From Eucommia ulmoides (taxonomy: Eukaryota > Streptophyta > Magnoliopsida > Garryales > Eucommiaceae), in NCBI GenBank assembly GCA_016647705.1, contig CM028339.1, positions 24,157,803-24,221,802 of the forward strand: a stretch of 64,000 nucleotides of DNA. Direction: 5' to 3'. The position numbers and the translations under genes are program-made. Positions 3,218-33,943 of this stretch are shown in pieces. The notes under the pieces are model-generated. The model was not told where the DNA came from. It searched no databases and saw nothing but the letters and a program-made list of their open reading frames with translations. Every line of letters starts with the position of its first letter. The first letter of the stretch is position 1.

Positions 3218-4177
3218 CACGGGTAACCAGCCACGAAAGTTTATCTGTTGGCCCCTTGCAACATGGTGATAATTCAACCCACATCAAGAACAAATATAGT
3301 TTTTTTTCCCCATGTTTCTGTAATTCTGGTTCAAATTTATGGGAATAGAAACCATAAAAAAAGGAACGAAAACGCCACTTTTAGTGAATAGTGAACATTC
3401 CCTGAAGGTAAAACTGAGGGTGGCTGTTTTTTGAAGGCATATATTGGAGTTGCATTTAATGTGGAAATTTGATATAGTTGGATACAACCATTGGTTTCAT
3501 TTCCTTTAAGGCAATGACTTTGGGTTTGTGAAAGCACATGGTATTTTTCTAACATGTCGGCTTTGTTGCACATGGTTGATTGCCTTAACTAAGAAAACAT
3601 GCTTCATGCTCGAATGTTTATTTTCCTTGTCAAATACTAGTTGTTATAACAGAGTGCAGGCAAATAAATAATCAAGTGTGAAATATATAATCATAATGGC
3701 AGTGCCTCAATGTGGGCTGGTATTTGGATCATCCCATTATTAAATGAATGTAAAAGGAGAGAGAGGGAGAATGAGAGAAAGATGAGTGTGCGTTTTATGT
3801 TGAATTTTTGGTTAGTTTAAAGGGTTTAATTTTATTAACATTATTTTGATGATAACAATAATTTGATAATTTTCCGGACTGATTTATTTATTGAGAAATG
3901 TGACAGATTTAGTTATGTGATAATGGACCACGTACGTCATGTAATGATGATAACATTGGATCGATCATGTTAAGCATATAGATTGAAAAATCAAAATATT
4001 TTGACATTTTTTTTTTGGGTATTTACTAAGGTAAATGACATTTATATGTCAAATCCGTTTCATCCCGATTTAGATCATGCACTACAATATGTGTTAAATG
4101 CTATTGTGTGTGATTAAGTTATAAGTATGCATGCATGAGTGTTTAGATTTGTTAAGATTATTTCCTTGTATGTTTAG
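3218..4177. other. Unassigned AT-rich sequence
   Basis: There is no supported gene. From about 3795 the text ('tattttgatgataacaa') resembles the start of a reversed family A LTR that would continue past the hAT element and Copia C1 to 16048. This reading is tentative. Confidence 0.3.
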
Positions 4178-4659
4178 TAGGGGTGGTCATGGGTAGGGGT
4201 GTAAGTTTAACCCGCAGACCTGCCTCGCCCCGGCCGACTCGCCATCAGGTTGGTCAGATTTTTCTTAAGATTTTTTAGTTTCACCTGAATCCGACCAGCC
4301 TGCTACCAAAGCCTATTAGATTAGGTGACCCTCTACCCATACCCGGCCTACCCGAACTCAACCGAATCCATAACCCTAAAGTGGATGAATGTTTTTTATT
4401 TTTTATTTTTTATTTTTTTTTTATGGAAATTAATATTGGTAAGTAGTAATTACTATGGATGAATATATGTTTTAATTTTTTATTTGTTATTTGGTGATTA
4501 TTTTTTAAATTATGTTGACTTGGGCTTGAGATATTTTACAATGGGTGGGCTTGGGTAGAGTAATAGGGCCCGATGATCTGGCCTAATAAATTTTCGTAAT
4601 ACCCTAAGTAGAGCTCAGCCTAGCTCAGCCCAGCCCAGCCCAGCCCATTACCACCCCTA
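4178..4659. mobile_element. Non-autonomous hAT transposon, 482 bp
   Basis: The left end TAGGGGTGGTCATGGG pairs with the right end CCATTACCACCCCTA as terminal inverted repeats. The flanks ATGTTTAG (4170-4177) and ATATTTAG (4660-4667) form an 8-bp target duplication with one mismatch, the hAT signature. The inside is GC-rich near both ends ('cagcccagcccagccc') and carries no transposase. Ends and the subterminal 'gtaataccct' block match the larger element at 31800-32778, so both belong to one family. Confidence 0.8.
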
Positions 4660-5464: not shown

Positions 5465-6300
5465 ATGGAAGAATCATCACCCATCAACAACCTAACGGCA
5501 CTACCATCGTCATCCACCTTTTCCCTACCACAAACCACCCAACACCCTGCCACCGTACTGCAACATATGGCTATTCCAACACCTTTCTCCATTTCGCTTC
5601 CACCACATGCCATATCTTTCATGCTACCATTACTGCCTAAATATCCAACTCTTTCCACTATCTCACAAATTTTGCCGCTTCCTTCTATTTCAGCCACCAC
5701 CCATTCGATTCGCGCAACCATACCAATGGGTTCTCCAGCCACGCGACTCATGAAAGATAACTTCTCTCTATTAATACCATATCAGCCCCTCAAAAATTAT
5801 TTTTATCAAACTACTAACTGTGGTATTCTTAGTGGTGCTCAATTCTTATCGGCTGTGATTTTACACCTGATGTTATCTCTCCACCAACAAATCTACAACT
5901 TAGTTCTCTTTTATGGAATTGTCAAGATCAATTGCTTCGAAGCGCTCTTACGTTTCCTTAACGAATGAAATTGTACCATATGTGATGTCTGCAGTGACAT
6001 CATTTGACGTATGGACTACTCTCCATAATTTATATGCACGTATGATGACTCTTAAGAAGTCTTTAGCCCGAGTAACCAAAGGATCCCAAGGCAATCATTT
6101 TCTCAAAGTCATGTCTTCTCCAATCACCTCCATCATCAAATGGGACACGCGAAGAACACAAAGCAAGGGTCTAGCACAGTGTGTCAATATTGTGACAAAC
6201 CAGGTTACACTGCAAAGCAATGCTGGAACTTTTTCTTTGGGTCAAACAATCCAACTCGACCACCTCTGGATTCCCCAATGCTGGCCAAAAGACTAACCAT
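5465..6300 (+). pseudogene. Copia C1 gag remnant
   Basis: This is a weak, Pro/Thr/Ser-rich coding stretch after the C1 5' LTR. It ends in a zinc-knuckle-like segment (CQYC...AKQC near 6190-6230), as expected for a nucleocapsid domain. In the family this protein builds the virus-like particle. Here it is a fossil in several frames. Confidence 0.6.
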
Positions 6301-8098
6301 CCATGTGCCAATTTTGTCCAATTGGGTGCCACATCCAACTCCAATTGGTTGGTCGACTCCAGTACATCTTATAATGTGACGACCAATCTTCAAAATCTTT
6401 CCCTTCATTTTGAGTATGATGGTGGTGAGAATGTCATGTTGGGTGATGGTAAAAATGTAAAAGTGACACACACTGGCTTCACCCCTTTACCCTCTCTTTC
6501 TAGACCTTTACATCTAAATAATATCCTTTGTGTTCCTAGAATGACAAAGAACCTTATTTCTGTTTATCAACTTTGCTCATTGAATAATGTTTCTCTTGAA
6601 TTCTCATATTTTTCATTTGTTGTGAAGGATTATCGCACTAAGGAGCCTCTGGTAGCGGGGAAGCCTAAAAGTGGTGTCTGTGAGTGGCCGTTGAAGAACT
6701 TATCCAAGCTGGTAGCCTCTCCTTCAGTCAACTCTACCCAACTATTCAACCTATTTGAATGGCATTGTCATCTTGGTCATCCTTTTTCCCCTATCCTACG
6801 TCGTATTTTTAGTTTAATTGATATTCCTGTTTATTCTTTCACGTCGAAATTTAACTGCAATTCCTGTAAGTGCAATAAAATGCACAAAACTCCTTTTGCA
6901 ACTTTCTCAATAAAATCGACGTCTCCTTTGGAATTTGTTTACTCTGATGTGTGGGGTCCTTCCCTAGTTCCTTCTATTGATAGATTTCAGTACTATCTAA
7001 TTTTTGTGGATCATTTTCCAAAATATATTTAGTTATATCCCATAAAAAAAAAAAAAAAAAAAAAAAGGTCTAAAGTCTCCCACATCTTTCCCAAATTCAA
7101 GACCTTAGTTGAAAATTTCTTTAAGAAATCTATGGTCTCATTTTATTCTGTCAATAGTGGTAAATTTATTCACCTTAAATATTATTTTTCTAGTAATGGG
7201 ATATCTCACTTCTTGACCCCCCCCATACACCAGAATATAATGGTACTGTTGAAAGACGCCATAGACACCTTGTTGAGATAGGTCTTATACTTCTTCATAT
7301 TGCTAACCTACCATTATACTTTTGGTCATATGCCTTTCAAATAGCCACATATTTGATCAATATAATGCCAATTTCTCTCTTGAATAATGAATCACCTAAT
7401 CTTTATATTTTTGGAACCCAACTAAATTCCACAAAGTTTCATGTTTTTGGTTGTTTATGCTACCCATGGCTATGTCCATATGCTAAGAATAAATTGGAAC
7501 CAAGGTCAACTCTGTGTATTTTTCTTGGGTACTCCCTTAATGAAAATGCCTATAAATGTTATGATCCAGCTACCTCCAAACTCTGCCTTTCTAGGCATGT
7601 GGATTTTGTTGAACATGAATTTCCATTTACAAAGTTGCAACCTATTGCAAAACAAGTTAGTGAAGACACAATCAACACTTGGCTTCTACACTTTATCATA
7701 CCCATCCAAGCCGTTGGTCTTATCTTGGAGTCTAATGCCAACCGACTGCCATCTCTACATTTTATGCCTTCTTTGGCCACAGGTAATACTCCAACTCATG
7801 ATGTACTCCTTACAGAAGCAACCTCAAGCAATTGCCCTTCATCAAATGAAGCTCCGAGACTTAGAGAACAAAATTCAGGTATGAGTATTCTAGCCCTTTT
7901 TCCAGCCTATTCATCTTCCCCTTTATCTACATCTACTTCTAATCATTACAGGAATGCACCCTAAACATTCACCCAATGACCACTCGAGCCAAGAACAACA
8001 TTTGCAAGCCCAGTCAATGCCTCCATCTAGCCACCATTGCCCAAGACCTTATGAACACTTTTATACCATGTGAACCCCTCACTTCACCAGAAGCCAAG
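6300..8098 (+). pseudogene. Copia C1 protease-integrase region
   Basis: A protease-like 'NWLVDSS' segment (about 6340) is followed by the pre-integrase motif WHCHLGHP (about 6760), a CxxC pair, and the integrase core opening 'YSDVWGPS' (about 6940). Downstream 'FHVFGCLCYPW' and 'CIFLGYS' (7430-7530) are typical of the Copia integrase C-terminal part. A poly-A stretch lies at 7044-7066. The region is interrupted at 8099 by a solo LTR. It is broken. Confidence 0.8.
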
Positions 8099-31014: not shown

Positions 31015-31799
31015 CCGGCACCAGATGTTTTAGATATTTTGGGATATTTTTTAAATATTTTTTTTTTCTCTAAATATCCTCCCTTCTTCCCAAGACATTG
31101 AGGACGTTTTTAGGACCTCCTCAAGAGCTCTGGCCTATCAACCAAGAATATCACAAAGCCAATAAGAGGAAACGATCTCGAAGCGGTTTTAGCGTCAGTT
31201 CTTTGGATAACGGCTAGTCTCCTTGTTTTTCTCTTTATTTATTAGTTTTAGTTGATAGTTTTGTTTATGTTTAGCTTGTGTATTATTGAATATAGGGTTA
31301 TGGCCATGTGTAACTAAACATATATTTTCTAGGGAGCAATTTGTTTATAAAAACATTGTTTGTTTGATCTTTGTTTTGTTATCAATTTTTCATCAATATT
31401 CGATTGTGTTTACCATTTTATTACAATCATTATATGCTTGTTATGGTATTATGGTTGATTTGAGAATACGAGGTTTGACACTTGAGAGAGATAACCCCGG
31501 ATTCGAACTAGGTTTTAAACACAACGTGACGATCTAATGACTTGGGAAAGCATTAGAAAGTATGCAATCCGTGAGATTAGGGCGAGACTTAAGTGAACAA
31601 AGTTAATTCCTAGGCAATATAATCCCTTAAACGTCATATTAGTATTGTACTTATTAATTTAGTTTAGTATATTTTATTAACAAAATCATAAATTAAGTCA
31701 CCTAGATAAAATTCGGTTATGACAATCGCGATTCTCAACGACAATTTAATCCAATCTCTATGGATATGACAACCATACTCTTCCTATTATACTAAAAGT

Positions 31800-32778
31800 T
31801 AGGGGTGGTCATGGGCTCGGGAGCCCGCCCACTGAGCTAGGGCCTAACCATTTTCTTTTAGGGTCGGCCCGGTCTTTTTTTAATAATATTATATATTATA
31901 TATAATAATATCATGATTTGAGAGTGCACTACTTGAGTGGAAACAGGCTGGAAATAGATTGGTATGGGCATGAATTGATCACCTAATTCATAATTAAATA
32001 ATAACTATAATTATATAATTTATATAATATTAAGATAAAAATATTGTACCTCCTATCTTCTTTACACAACCAAAGGATGTCTCATTCTCTCTCTACCGTG
32101 TCTCTCTCATTTCACTCTCACTCGTTCTCACTTTCTCTCTACCTCTCTCTCACTCTCGCTCTCACACAGACGACGACTTTTTCGAGCCGTCACCATCCCT
32201 AACCCATCTCGCTCCACGCTGCCGCTTTTACCACCGATCTCACCACTCACTAATTCACTATCATTGCTCTCTCTCCGTATGAAGTGTTGGGCGTTTCTCC
32301 ATTTGCAAGTCCCGACGACATCAAGAGTGCTTACCGAAAACTCGCTCTCAAGTATCATCCGGATGTCAACAATGAGGTAACATTTTTCTGAATCCAACGA
32401 AATTCTTTTCAAATTTCAAGTCCAATTTCATGAAATCAAAACCCTAAGCAATCAATCGGTACTCTCTCTCTCTCTCTGTCTATCTCTCTTTGCTCTGACT
32501 GCTGAAATTTGAGTATATAATGTGTTGAATTTGACTTTAAAAAATTGTGCATTAGCCTGTTGAATTTGAGTAAACATATTCTATTGCTTTGTTTAATTTA
32601 AAAATAAAAATTATAGAGCCAGATCGAGGGTCGAGCTAGGGCCCTAATTATGTTGATAGGGTCGGACTTGGGAATGAAAACAAGACCCGATCTTAGGGCC
32701 GGGCTGGGCTAGGGCCATGTATATTTTTGTAATACCCTATCTAAATTCCAGCCCGGCCCTACCCCATGACCATCCCTA
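31800..32778 (+). mobile_element. hAT transposon (979 bp) carrying host gene sequence
   Basis: The left end TAGGGGTGGTCATGGGC and the right end CCATGACCATCCCTA are inverted repeats. CTAAAAGT (31792-31799) and CTAAAACT (32779-32786) form an 8-bp target duplication with one mismatch. GC-rich subterminal blocks ('gggccgggctgggctaggg') match the 482-bp element at 4178-4659, a smaller relative. There is no transposase. The middle (about 32080-32560) is unlike the ends: CT-rich leader-like DNA, a J-domain exon and the start of an intron. The element is nested in the family B LTR. Confidence 0.85.
32275..32376 (+). pseudogene. Captured J-domain (DnaJ/HSP40) exon fragment
   Basis: These 34 codons read '[20 protein letters not shown]' and then '[14 protein letters not shown]'. 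That is J-domain helices I and II and the invariant HPD loop, needed to stimulate HSP70 ATPase in this family. The exon stops at GAG followed by GTAACA, a proper 5' splice donor, so genomic DNA was captured, not cDNA. In-frame stops lie upstream and no initiator or helix III remains, so it is a fragment. The wording resembles organelle-targeted plant J proteins, but the parent gene cannot be named. The CT-rich DNA before it (32080-32260) may be its former leader and transit-peptide region. Confidence 0.85.
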
Positions 32779-32921
32779 CTAAAACTTGACCCGTACACTT
32801 GCGGTGAAAGTAGCGACGTAATATTCCACTACCAAGCTTTTGGCACCGTTGCTGGGGATTGATTTTTAGATTGTTGTTGTTATTGTAAGTAAATAACTTG
32901 ATTTTAATTTAGGCATTTATT

Positions 32922-33943
32922 TTGTTTATAATTTTTCTTTTTAGTTTTGTTTGTTCTACGAGGTGCTTGAAGATAGATCATCAACAAGTCCTCATGTATT
33001 TCTTTCAACGAGATTCCGAGACATTTTATTGTGCTTGGGATAGATACAAGGAATTACTATTCTGGTTCTCCAATTATCGTTTCCCGATGGAGTGTCAATT
33101 ACTAAACTTCTTCGACGGGTTATTAGTCGCAACAAGAACTTGCATGGAAAGAGGAAACGATACCACCTCTTTCTACCAACTAACCGCAGATGAAGCCTAT
33201 TGGTTGTTGGAAGACATGGCAGAGTTTGATTTTCGGAGTTGGAATTATTCAACAAGCTACAAACACTTGAGGGATAGTTTCACCATTTCTACGTCATGGA
33301 TTGACACCCAGGACCGATATGTAGAGTCTTCTCCTACCCTGGAAGAAATGTTTGTTGAATTTATAGGAGAGACTCAGGCATTCTGGAGAGAAACGAATGA
33401 CCGACTCAACAAGCATGAGGACCGTCTTGACAAAATTAAGACGACCTGCGCTGAAATTGATGAGACCGTAAAGTCTCTTGAGACTCAAATCGGTTAGCTT
33501 ATTTGCTTAATTGAGGCCAAGGCAGAAATAGTGACACTGAGAGACACACAAGTGAAAGCCACCGTGAGGAACCAAATACGAGCGGGAGGAACTTGGGTTC
33601 ATGCAATGACGATGATTCGAATGAGATGGAAACCCAAGCATGGATCGACGATTGTGATTCTTCACCATTTGAGATCCAACTATTGATGTCGCCACCGATC
33701 CAAGAAGATCACATCTATAAGGATCCAATGTGGCTCAATTGTCCTTCACCGTCTCTTGCAACGTTCATTCAGGCCAACAGAGCACATGAGACGGAGATGA
33801 GTCTTGTTGATAGTTCGAGCCAAGCAATGCCATATTTCGCCAAGCTTGAGGGTGTTCTGAATCAAGACCCATATGTGGTATTGTGTGACACTTACTATGG
33901 GCAGAAACCACTCTTTGACGAGCCCTTCTCTATGTCAAGCTGA
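32922..33943 (+). pseudogene. Athila-like gag remnant
   Basis: The 32922-33497 frame contains 'FFQRDSETFYCAWDRYKELL' followed by 'FFDGLLVATRT' and 'ADEAYWLLEDMAEFD', the retrotransposon gag (capsid) pattern of Athila-type elements, and then a heptad-rich stretch ('NDRLNKHEDRLDKI'). A second frame (33593-33943) is acidic and unassigned, as is usual for the spacer after gag. It is a truncated fossil. Sequence from 33950 to 35500 is non-coding, with 'gggggtgtggttt' wording typical of this group. Confidence 0.7.

Follow-up and report, generated by a model that had tools for sequence, protein, structure and literature searches.

A non-autonomous hAT element family of Eucommia ulmoides carrying exon and intron sequence of a DnaJ gene

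The analysed stretch of Eucommia ulmoides DNA (64,000 nucleotides, C15:24157803-24221802 of assembly GCA_016647705.1; the window hereafter) was examined together with the whole genome of 946.67 Mb in 391 contigs. Positions 31800-32778 of the window are occupied by a 979-bp non-autonomous hAT element with imperfect inverted ends, the 22-nt arms of which are 86% complementary (Table 1). The terminal inverted repeats are short, of hAT type, and of the same kind as those on a transposase-bearing hAT described below, and the flanking 8-bp target-site duplication is identical at 7 of 8 positions. With up to three mismatches allowed, the 17-nt end sequence occurred four times in the window, against 0.03 occurrences expected from shuffles, namely at both ends of this element and at both ends of another one at 4178-4659. 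A transposase of its own was not found, with no open reading frame of 150 aa or more overlapping the element at 31800-32778.

The element at 4178-4659 is a second non-autonomous hAT of 482 bp, with the same end sequence, a different interior and a 7/8 duplication (atgtttag/atatttag); a further TAGGGGTG motif directly follows its 5' end. A frame of 270 codons at 6220-7032 of the window has a Pol beta-barrel domain (Pol_BBD) and, below threshold, a gag-pre-integrase match; it is probably a retrotransposon remnant.

Table 1. Features of the hAT element and its insertion site, in window positions
Feature	Position	Strand	Basis
Left target-site duplication, 8 bp, ctaaaagt	31792..31799	.	Duplication and empty sites
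5' terminal inverted repeat, hAT element	31800..31821	+	86% complementary arms
5' element body	31800..32271	+	32077-32252 common to loci without J match
Captured 3' part of DnaJ exon 1, 35 codons, HPD kept	32272..32376	+	
Captured splice donor GTAACA	32377..32382	+	
Captured intron 1, first part, 70 nt	32377..32446	+	~89% identical to parent
CT-rich stretch, 76 nt	32447..32522	+	In element copies; not in present-day parent intron
Captured intron 1, second part, 50 nt	32523..32572	+	90% identical to parent
3' element body	32588..32778	+	Common to J-less copies; from 32600 also in transposase-bearing element
3' terminal inverted repeat	32757..32778	-	
Right target-site duplication, ctaaaact	32779..32786	.	

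For the empty-site search, 2 kb around the element were used and 40 candidates scored, consisting of the window itself, three copies of the element and 36 copies of the repeat around the element that match the right flank. In 31 of these 36 copies the left flank reached the junction and was contiguous with the right, with an overlap of 7-13 nt between the flanks, as is expected where no element has been inserted; in the remaining five, the left match ended early or was unlisted. Together with the ends and the duplication, these sites bear out the preliminary description of the locus as a 979-bp element with hAT ends and an 8-bp duplication. The host repeat (31300-31799 and 32779-33300) is dispersed in many copies, with 87-90% identity over the right flank. 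Because it is abundant and contains a motif that we take to point to the interior of an LTR retrotransposon, it is probably of this kind; a 191-aa frame within it (32922-33497) gave no Pfam match above the cut-off.

Inside the element, the captured codons match positions 2-34 of 63 of the Pfam DnaJ domain (E = 1.7e-14) and include the HPD motif; they had been counted as 34 in the preliminary description and are 35 by our reading. The GTAACA splice donor noted there is present directly after the J codons and is followed by intron sequence. Over the 175 nt that comprise the J codons and the first intron part, the window copy is 91% identical to its best parent in the genome. The insert had been placed at 32080-32560. 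Its right part stands, as ~32272-32572 is captured from a DnaJ gene, 32447-32522 within it lacking a match in the present parent; its left part belongs to the element body, as the CT-rich segment 32077-32252 also occurs at loci without J match. That segment matches ~20 loci without a listed J match and holds a start-like stretch, ATGTCTCATTC; it might be an older captured gene start.

The genome search that had been proposed for finding the parent and further copies yielded both. The best parent is a gene at C5:56.436 Mb (L044), on a chromosome other than that of the window, for which exons 1 and 2 were modelled. From the ATG, exon 1 comprises 121 codons and is followed by a 145-bp GT-AG intron 1; exon 2 completes the J-domain, and the translation of the joined exons matches positions 2-63 of 63 of the DnaJ domain (E = 3e-25). 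A basic leader ahead of the J-domain suggests that the predicted protein is targeted to an organelle. No element end was found near the gene in the 9 kb read. A second parent-like locus, at C10:27.16 Mb, is a pseudogene with upstream gene DNA and an exon 1 interrupted by stops; it was likewise without element ends in 9 kb read. Four elements retain the larger part of exon 1; their identity is 87-89% to the C5 gene versus 81-84% to the C10 pseudogene. Because even in these fuller copies exon 1 identity is just 87-89%, we regard the C5 gene as the best living candidate parent rather than as a proven donor.

When the element or its middle part served as DNA query, at least 14 loci were located that carry the J codons with intron sequence or element ends, a lower bound in that only the best 40 candidates were scored. 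They lie on C1 (2), C2, C7, C8 (2), C10, C13 (2), C14 (2), C15 (2, including the window) and C17. A protein search with the 35 codons gave 39 matches, the 16 best of which are the 14 elements, the parent and the pseudogene (68-100% identity). The next matches (E of 3e-6 and weaker, 50-70% identity) are not separated by a wide score gap (7.9e-7 vs 3.0e-6) and were set apart because they do not appear in the DNA lists. Nine of the 14 copies showed both ends and a 7-8/8 duplication directly, five of them 8/8 (one of these, in L013, being a TC repeat); in L050 and L052 (= L017) the 5' end is worn, and an 8/8 duplication is obtained if the duplication itself guides the reading of that end, and L053 has both ends without a matching duplication. 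Only the 5' end of L045 and only the 3' end of L051 were found in the DNA read. The J stretch is thus situated between two recognisable element ends in 12 of 14 copies, and lies outside an element in the parent and the pseudogene; had it lain outside in other copies, or had the ends not been transposon termini, the preliminary description would have failed, and the nine copies with ends and duplications, together with the window site being empty elsewhere, show the termini to be genuine. The window copy forms a supported clade (100/98) with L009, L010 and L011.

Unrelated nested sequence was observed inside two of the J elements, at ~520-1290 of L018 and ~670-1560 of L011; the latter has long inverted arms (75%), and the former carries TAGGGGTGTTCAAA near its start, like another hAT. 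An ancestral insert common to the longer elements L011, L018 and L050 was not found.

For the extent of the capture, parent coordinates were counted from g1, base 3601 of the L044 reverse complement, the intron-1 acceptor ending at g812. L013, L045 and L050 carry g356-359 to g808-809 and L014 extends to g811, so that in fuller copies the span begins at about codon 18 of exon 1 and stops a few bases before the acceptor. The two intron parts of L045 are separated by 4.7 kb, and L053 keeps g356-737 and has lost the right part. The preliminary description had taken the donor as a sign that genomic DNA was captured; the presence of intron-1 sequence up to near the acceptor, matching the parent, leads to the same conclusion and strengthens it. 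A CT-rich intron stretch of ~46-76 nt in element copies is absent from the present parent, which implies that parent or element has changed since, or that a lost paralogue was the donor.

The 13 copies keeping the right region align at a single right junction, which L053 has lost, and none of the 14 is entirely without the CT-rich stretch. An alignment of the left junctions, covering 11 copies (L050 and L053 had no anchor, L051 was not included), shows three forms. In L014, L015, L018, L019 and L052, element sequence like GTTGCTCTCACT, which also occurs in L023, runs into parent-like CCGCCGCTCAGC. The join is shorter in L013 and L045, as if sequence had been deleted between two occurrences of CGCCGCTCA. 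The exon codons TCTCCG directly follow element GCTCTC, or a similar sequence, in the window copy, L009, L010 and L011, probably through a larger deletion. L023 itself is a J-less element of 1014 bp with an 8/8 duplication, ~72% identical to L013 in its 5' part; it resembles the putative pre-capture element and is a diverged relative, not the direct predecessor.

A candidate source of mobility was found in L054 (C5:57.54 Mb), in which 3722 bp lie between the same kind of ends. Its similarity to the window element covers 31 nt of the 5' end (90%) and 179 nt of the 3' end (82%), and its 699-codon open frame contains a BED zinc finger, the hAT RNase-H fold and the hAT dimerisation domain; its duplication is inexact (ctctacat/tctacaat). 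A search with 647 residues of this transposase gave 79 matches, the best others being free of stops and 97% identical along the full 647 residues. Near-identical, stop-free relatives and matching ends imply the existence of a transposase family that is compatible and rather young, and it is plausible that a transposase of the L054 type moved the J elements. A second match, with stops, lies at C17:17841710-17843256, 0.9 kb upstream of a copy of the window element's 3' end at C17:17844122. L054 (C5:57.540 Mb) and the parent (C5:56.436 Mb) are 1.1 Mb apart on one chromosome, a proximity that may be fortuitous or may be left over from local capture.

Divergence was expressed as Kimura distance, which is 0.108 between the window copy and its nearest relative (L011), 0.169 on average among the 14 elements, and 0.152 on average to the parent. 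At plant substitution rates between 2.5e-9 and 7e-9 per site per year, the distance of 0.108 corresponds to some 8 to 22 million years. Changes of C to T or G to A account for 126 of the 245 differences from the parent over exon and intron. Taking the direction from the parent base, although the parent itself has changed, C-to-T changes numbered 23/112 in CHG, 44/280 in CG and 56/644 in CHH, compared with any change at 22/700 parent A and 36/644 parent T. Per site, they thus peak in the CHG and CG contexts, a pattern that methylated DNA is expected to show, and methylation silencing may explain the excess.

Selection on the J codons was assessed on a codon tree of the 14 elements, with a grid of four transition ratios per omega, the best always being the largest tried; this replaced an earlier model with omega fixed at 1 and the transition ratio at 2, which lay 10.7 log units below the free model. 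Log-likelihoods were -551.78 (omega 0.7), -552.07 (1.0), -553.75 (1.3), -553.80 (0.5) and -561.35 (0.3). Purifying selection was not supported, an omega of 1.0 costing only 0.3 log units relative to 0.7; the data reject strong constraint but not neutral change, and weak constraint is compatible with them, given only 35 codons. Counted directly against the parent, there are 86 nonsynonymous and 56 synonymous changes (74:26 expected), which alone would hint at constraint; we discount this because a single third-position difference, C in the parent and T in the elements, contributes 14 of the 56. The absence of stop codons from the J codons of all 14 copies mildly favours constraint. HPD is intact in five copies (window, L009, L011, L013, L045) and changed in nine (L010, L014, L015, L018, L019, L050, L051, L052, L053); L009 and L045 have one 3-nt gap each, and 13 of 14 copies keep the GT of the donor. 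In the window copy 45 codons are open and an ATG in frame with the J codons is missing; a Met-initiated frame from the element body through the J codons is present in two copies, L045 (158 aa) and L015 (146 aa).

Coding DNA of a host gene is carried by this element, and its parent lies elsewhere without an element; capture took place at the DNA level, with the intron kept; and the fragment has moved with the element, standing at 14 loci with separate duplications. We consider it very probable that the window element is a Pack-TYPE hAT element with a passenger DnaJ fragment, moved by a transposase from elsewhere. Points against it include the 7/8 duplication in the window, the CT-rich stretch missing in the parent, the copy without matching duplication (L053), and the two copies for which a single end was found (L045, L051). 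On this interpretation, a non-autonomous hAT would have acquired, most simply once, genomic DNA of a DnaJ gene, namely the greater part of exon 1, the donor and almost the whole of intron 1, possibly through template switching or gap repair at microhomology. The composite would then have multiplied to at least 14 loci by means of a transposase recognising the common ends, with internal deletions giving rise to subfamilies. The order of capture and later deletions is our inference from the junctions. The window copy appears to be an internally deleted descendant, whose four-member subgroup would later have lost most of exon 1, so that element body is joined directly to J codons, and it was subsequently inserted into the dispersed repeat on C15. 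The captured exon would be a decaying passenger, from which the window copy is predicted to make no protein of its own.

That the variable left junctions reflect several independent captures from the same gene is very unlikely, as one right junction is common to the 13 copies retaining the region and the CT-rich stretch, absent from the parent, persists at least partly in all 14. The longer left junction of five copies moreover contains element sequence also present in the J-less L023, and the shorter junctions are for this reason read as later deletions; most simply, a single capture in an ancestor was followed by deletions. Duplication or retroposition of the DnaJ gene in place of a transposed fragment has next to no probability: the C10 pseudogene, with no element ends in the 9 kb read, speaks for it, but the fragments in question keep intron 1 and are bracketed by element ends and duplications, and the window site is empty in the host-repeat relatives. 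For the window copy, its ends and the empty sites refute this alternative. A processed retrogene was rejected on account of intron 1. Pack-MULEs, CACTA elements and Helitrons reach the same outcome, gene fragments carried with introns, with different ends and target duplications (MULEs have a 9-bp duplication, CACTA elements their own ends with a 3-bp duplication, Helitrons TC...CTRR ends without duplication), and these identities were rejected on ends and duplication.

A further alternative is that the captured exon is in use in some copies, through a chimeric transcript or protein, in which an N-terminus from the element would precede a partial J-domain, or through small RNAs acting on the parent chaperone gene. 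The two Met-initiated frames, the widely retained donor and the stop-free J codons would suit such a role, as would exact words of 22, 21, 18 and 22 nt common to the window copy and the parent. Codon change is compatible with neutrality, however, HPD is lost in most copies, the window copy is without an in-frame ATG, and the captured span stops before exon 2, where the rest of the J-domain is encoded; use of the exon is accordingly very improbable. The same low expectation attaches to the specific proposal that small RNAs or chimeric transcripts of the family tune the chaperone gene while L045 and L015 still encode an element-J fusion peptide. The reading of the exon as a decaying passenger of a Pack-TYPE hAT is the one we retain.

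Capture by plant hAT elements had been thought less often reported than for other transposons; it is already in print for grapevine (PMC2528002) and for the Pack-hATs of maize and rice (PMC8903248). The latter, described in 2022, are hAT elements with inverted ends and an 8-nt duplication carrying host coding DNA, as in the Eucommia family, and one of them, in maize, is reported to give a gene a new splice donor (PMC8903248). The present case differs in species, the name Eucommia being absent from the main text of that paper, and in that junctions, J-less and transposase-bearing relatives are resolved for one family. In the grapevine Hatvine-6 transduplications (PMC2528002, 2008), the internal part matches host introns and exons, as in our element; Hatvine-6 copies are described as having a common transposase coding sequence and inserts that are unique or found in few, whereas the Eucommia element has no transposase and its insert recurs in at least 14 copies. 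Among the multicopy Pack-TIRs of animals (PMC8277862, 2021), which have microhomology at many breakpoints, hAT-N8 of the western clawed frog carries 5' UTR sequence of CAPSL; in this case too, a hAT took up part of a gene and amplified it, with distinct duplications, but on three chromosomes of an animal host and from a UTR, compared with 14 loci and exon plus intron in Eucommia. In the limited literature collection searched, no Pack-TYPE element was found reported for Eucommia. What is new is this hAT family in this host; Pack-TYPE behaviour of hAT elements is itself already known, and the accepted picture is unchanged by the family.

Its value lies in the fact that one genome shows the parent and a J-less relative, the two junctions and the stepwise deletions, 14 descendants, a plausible driver, and targets free of the element, which makes the family a good worked example of gene acquisition by hAT elements. 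It is also a warning that DnaJ fragments in the Eucommia genome can be transposon cargo.
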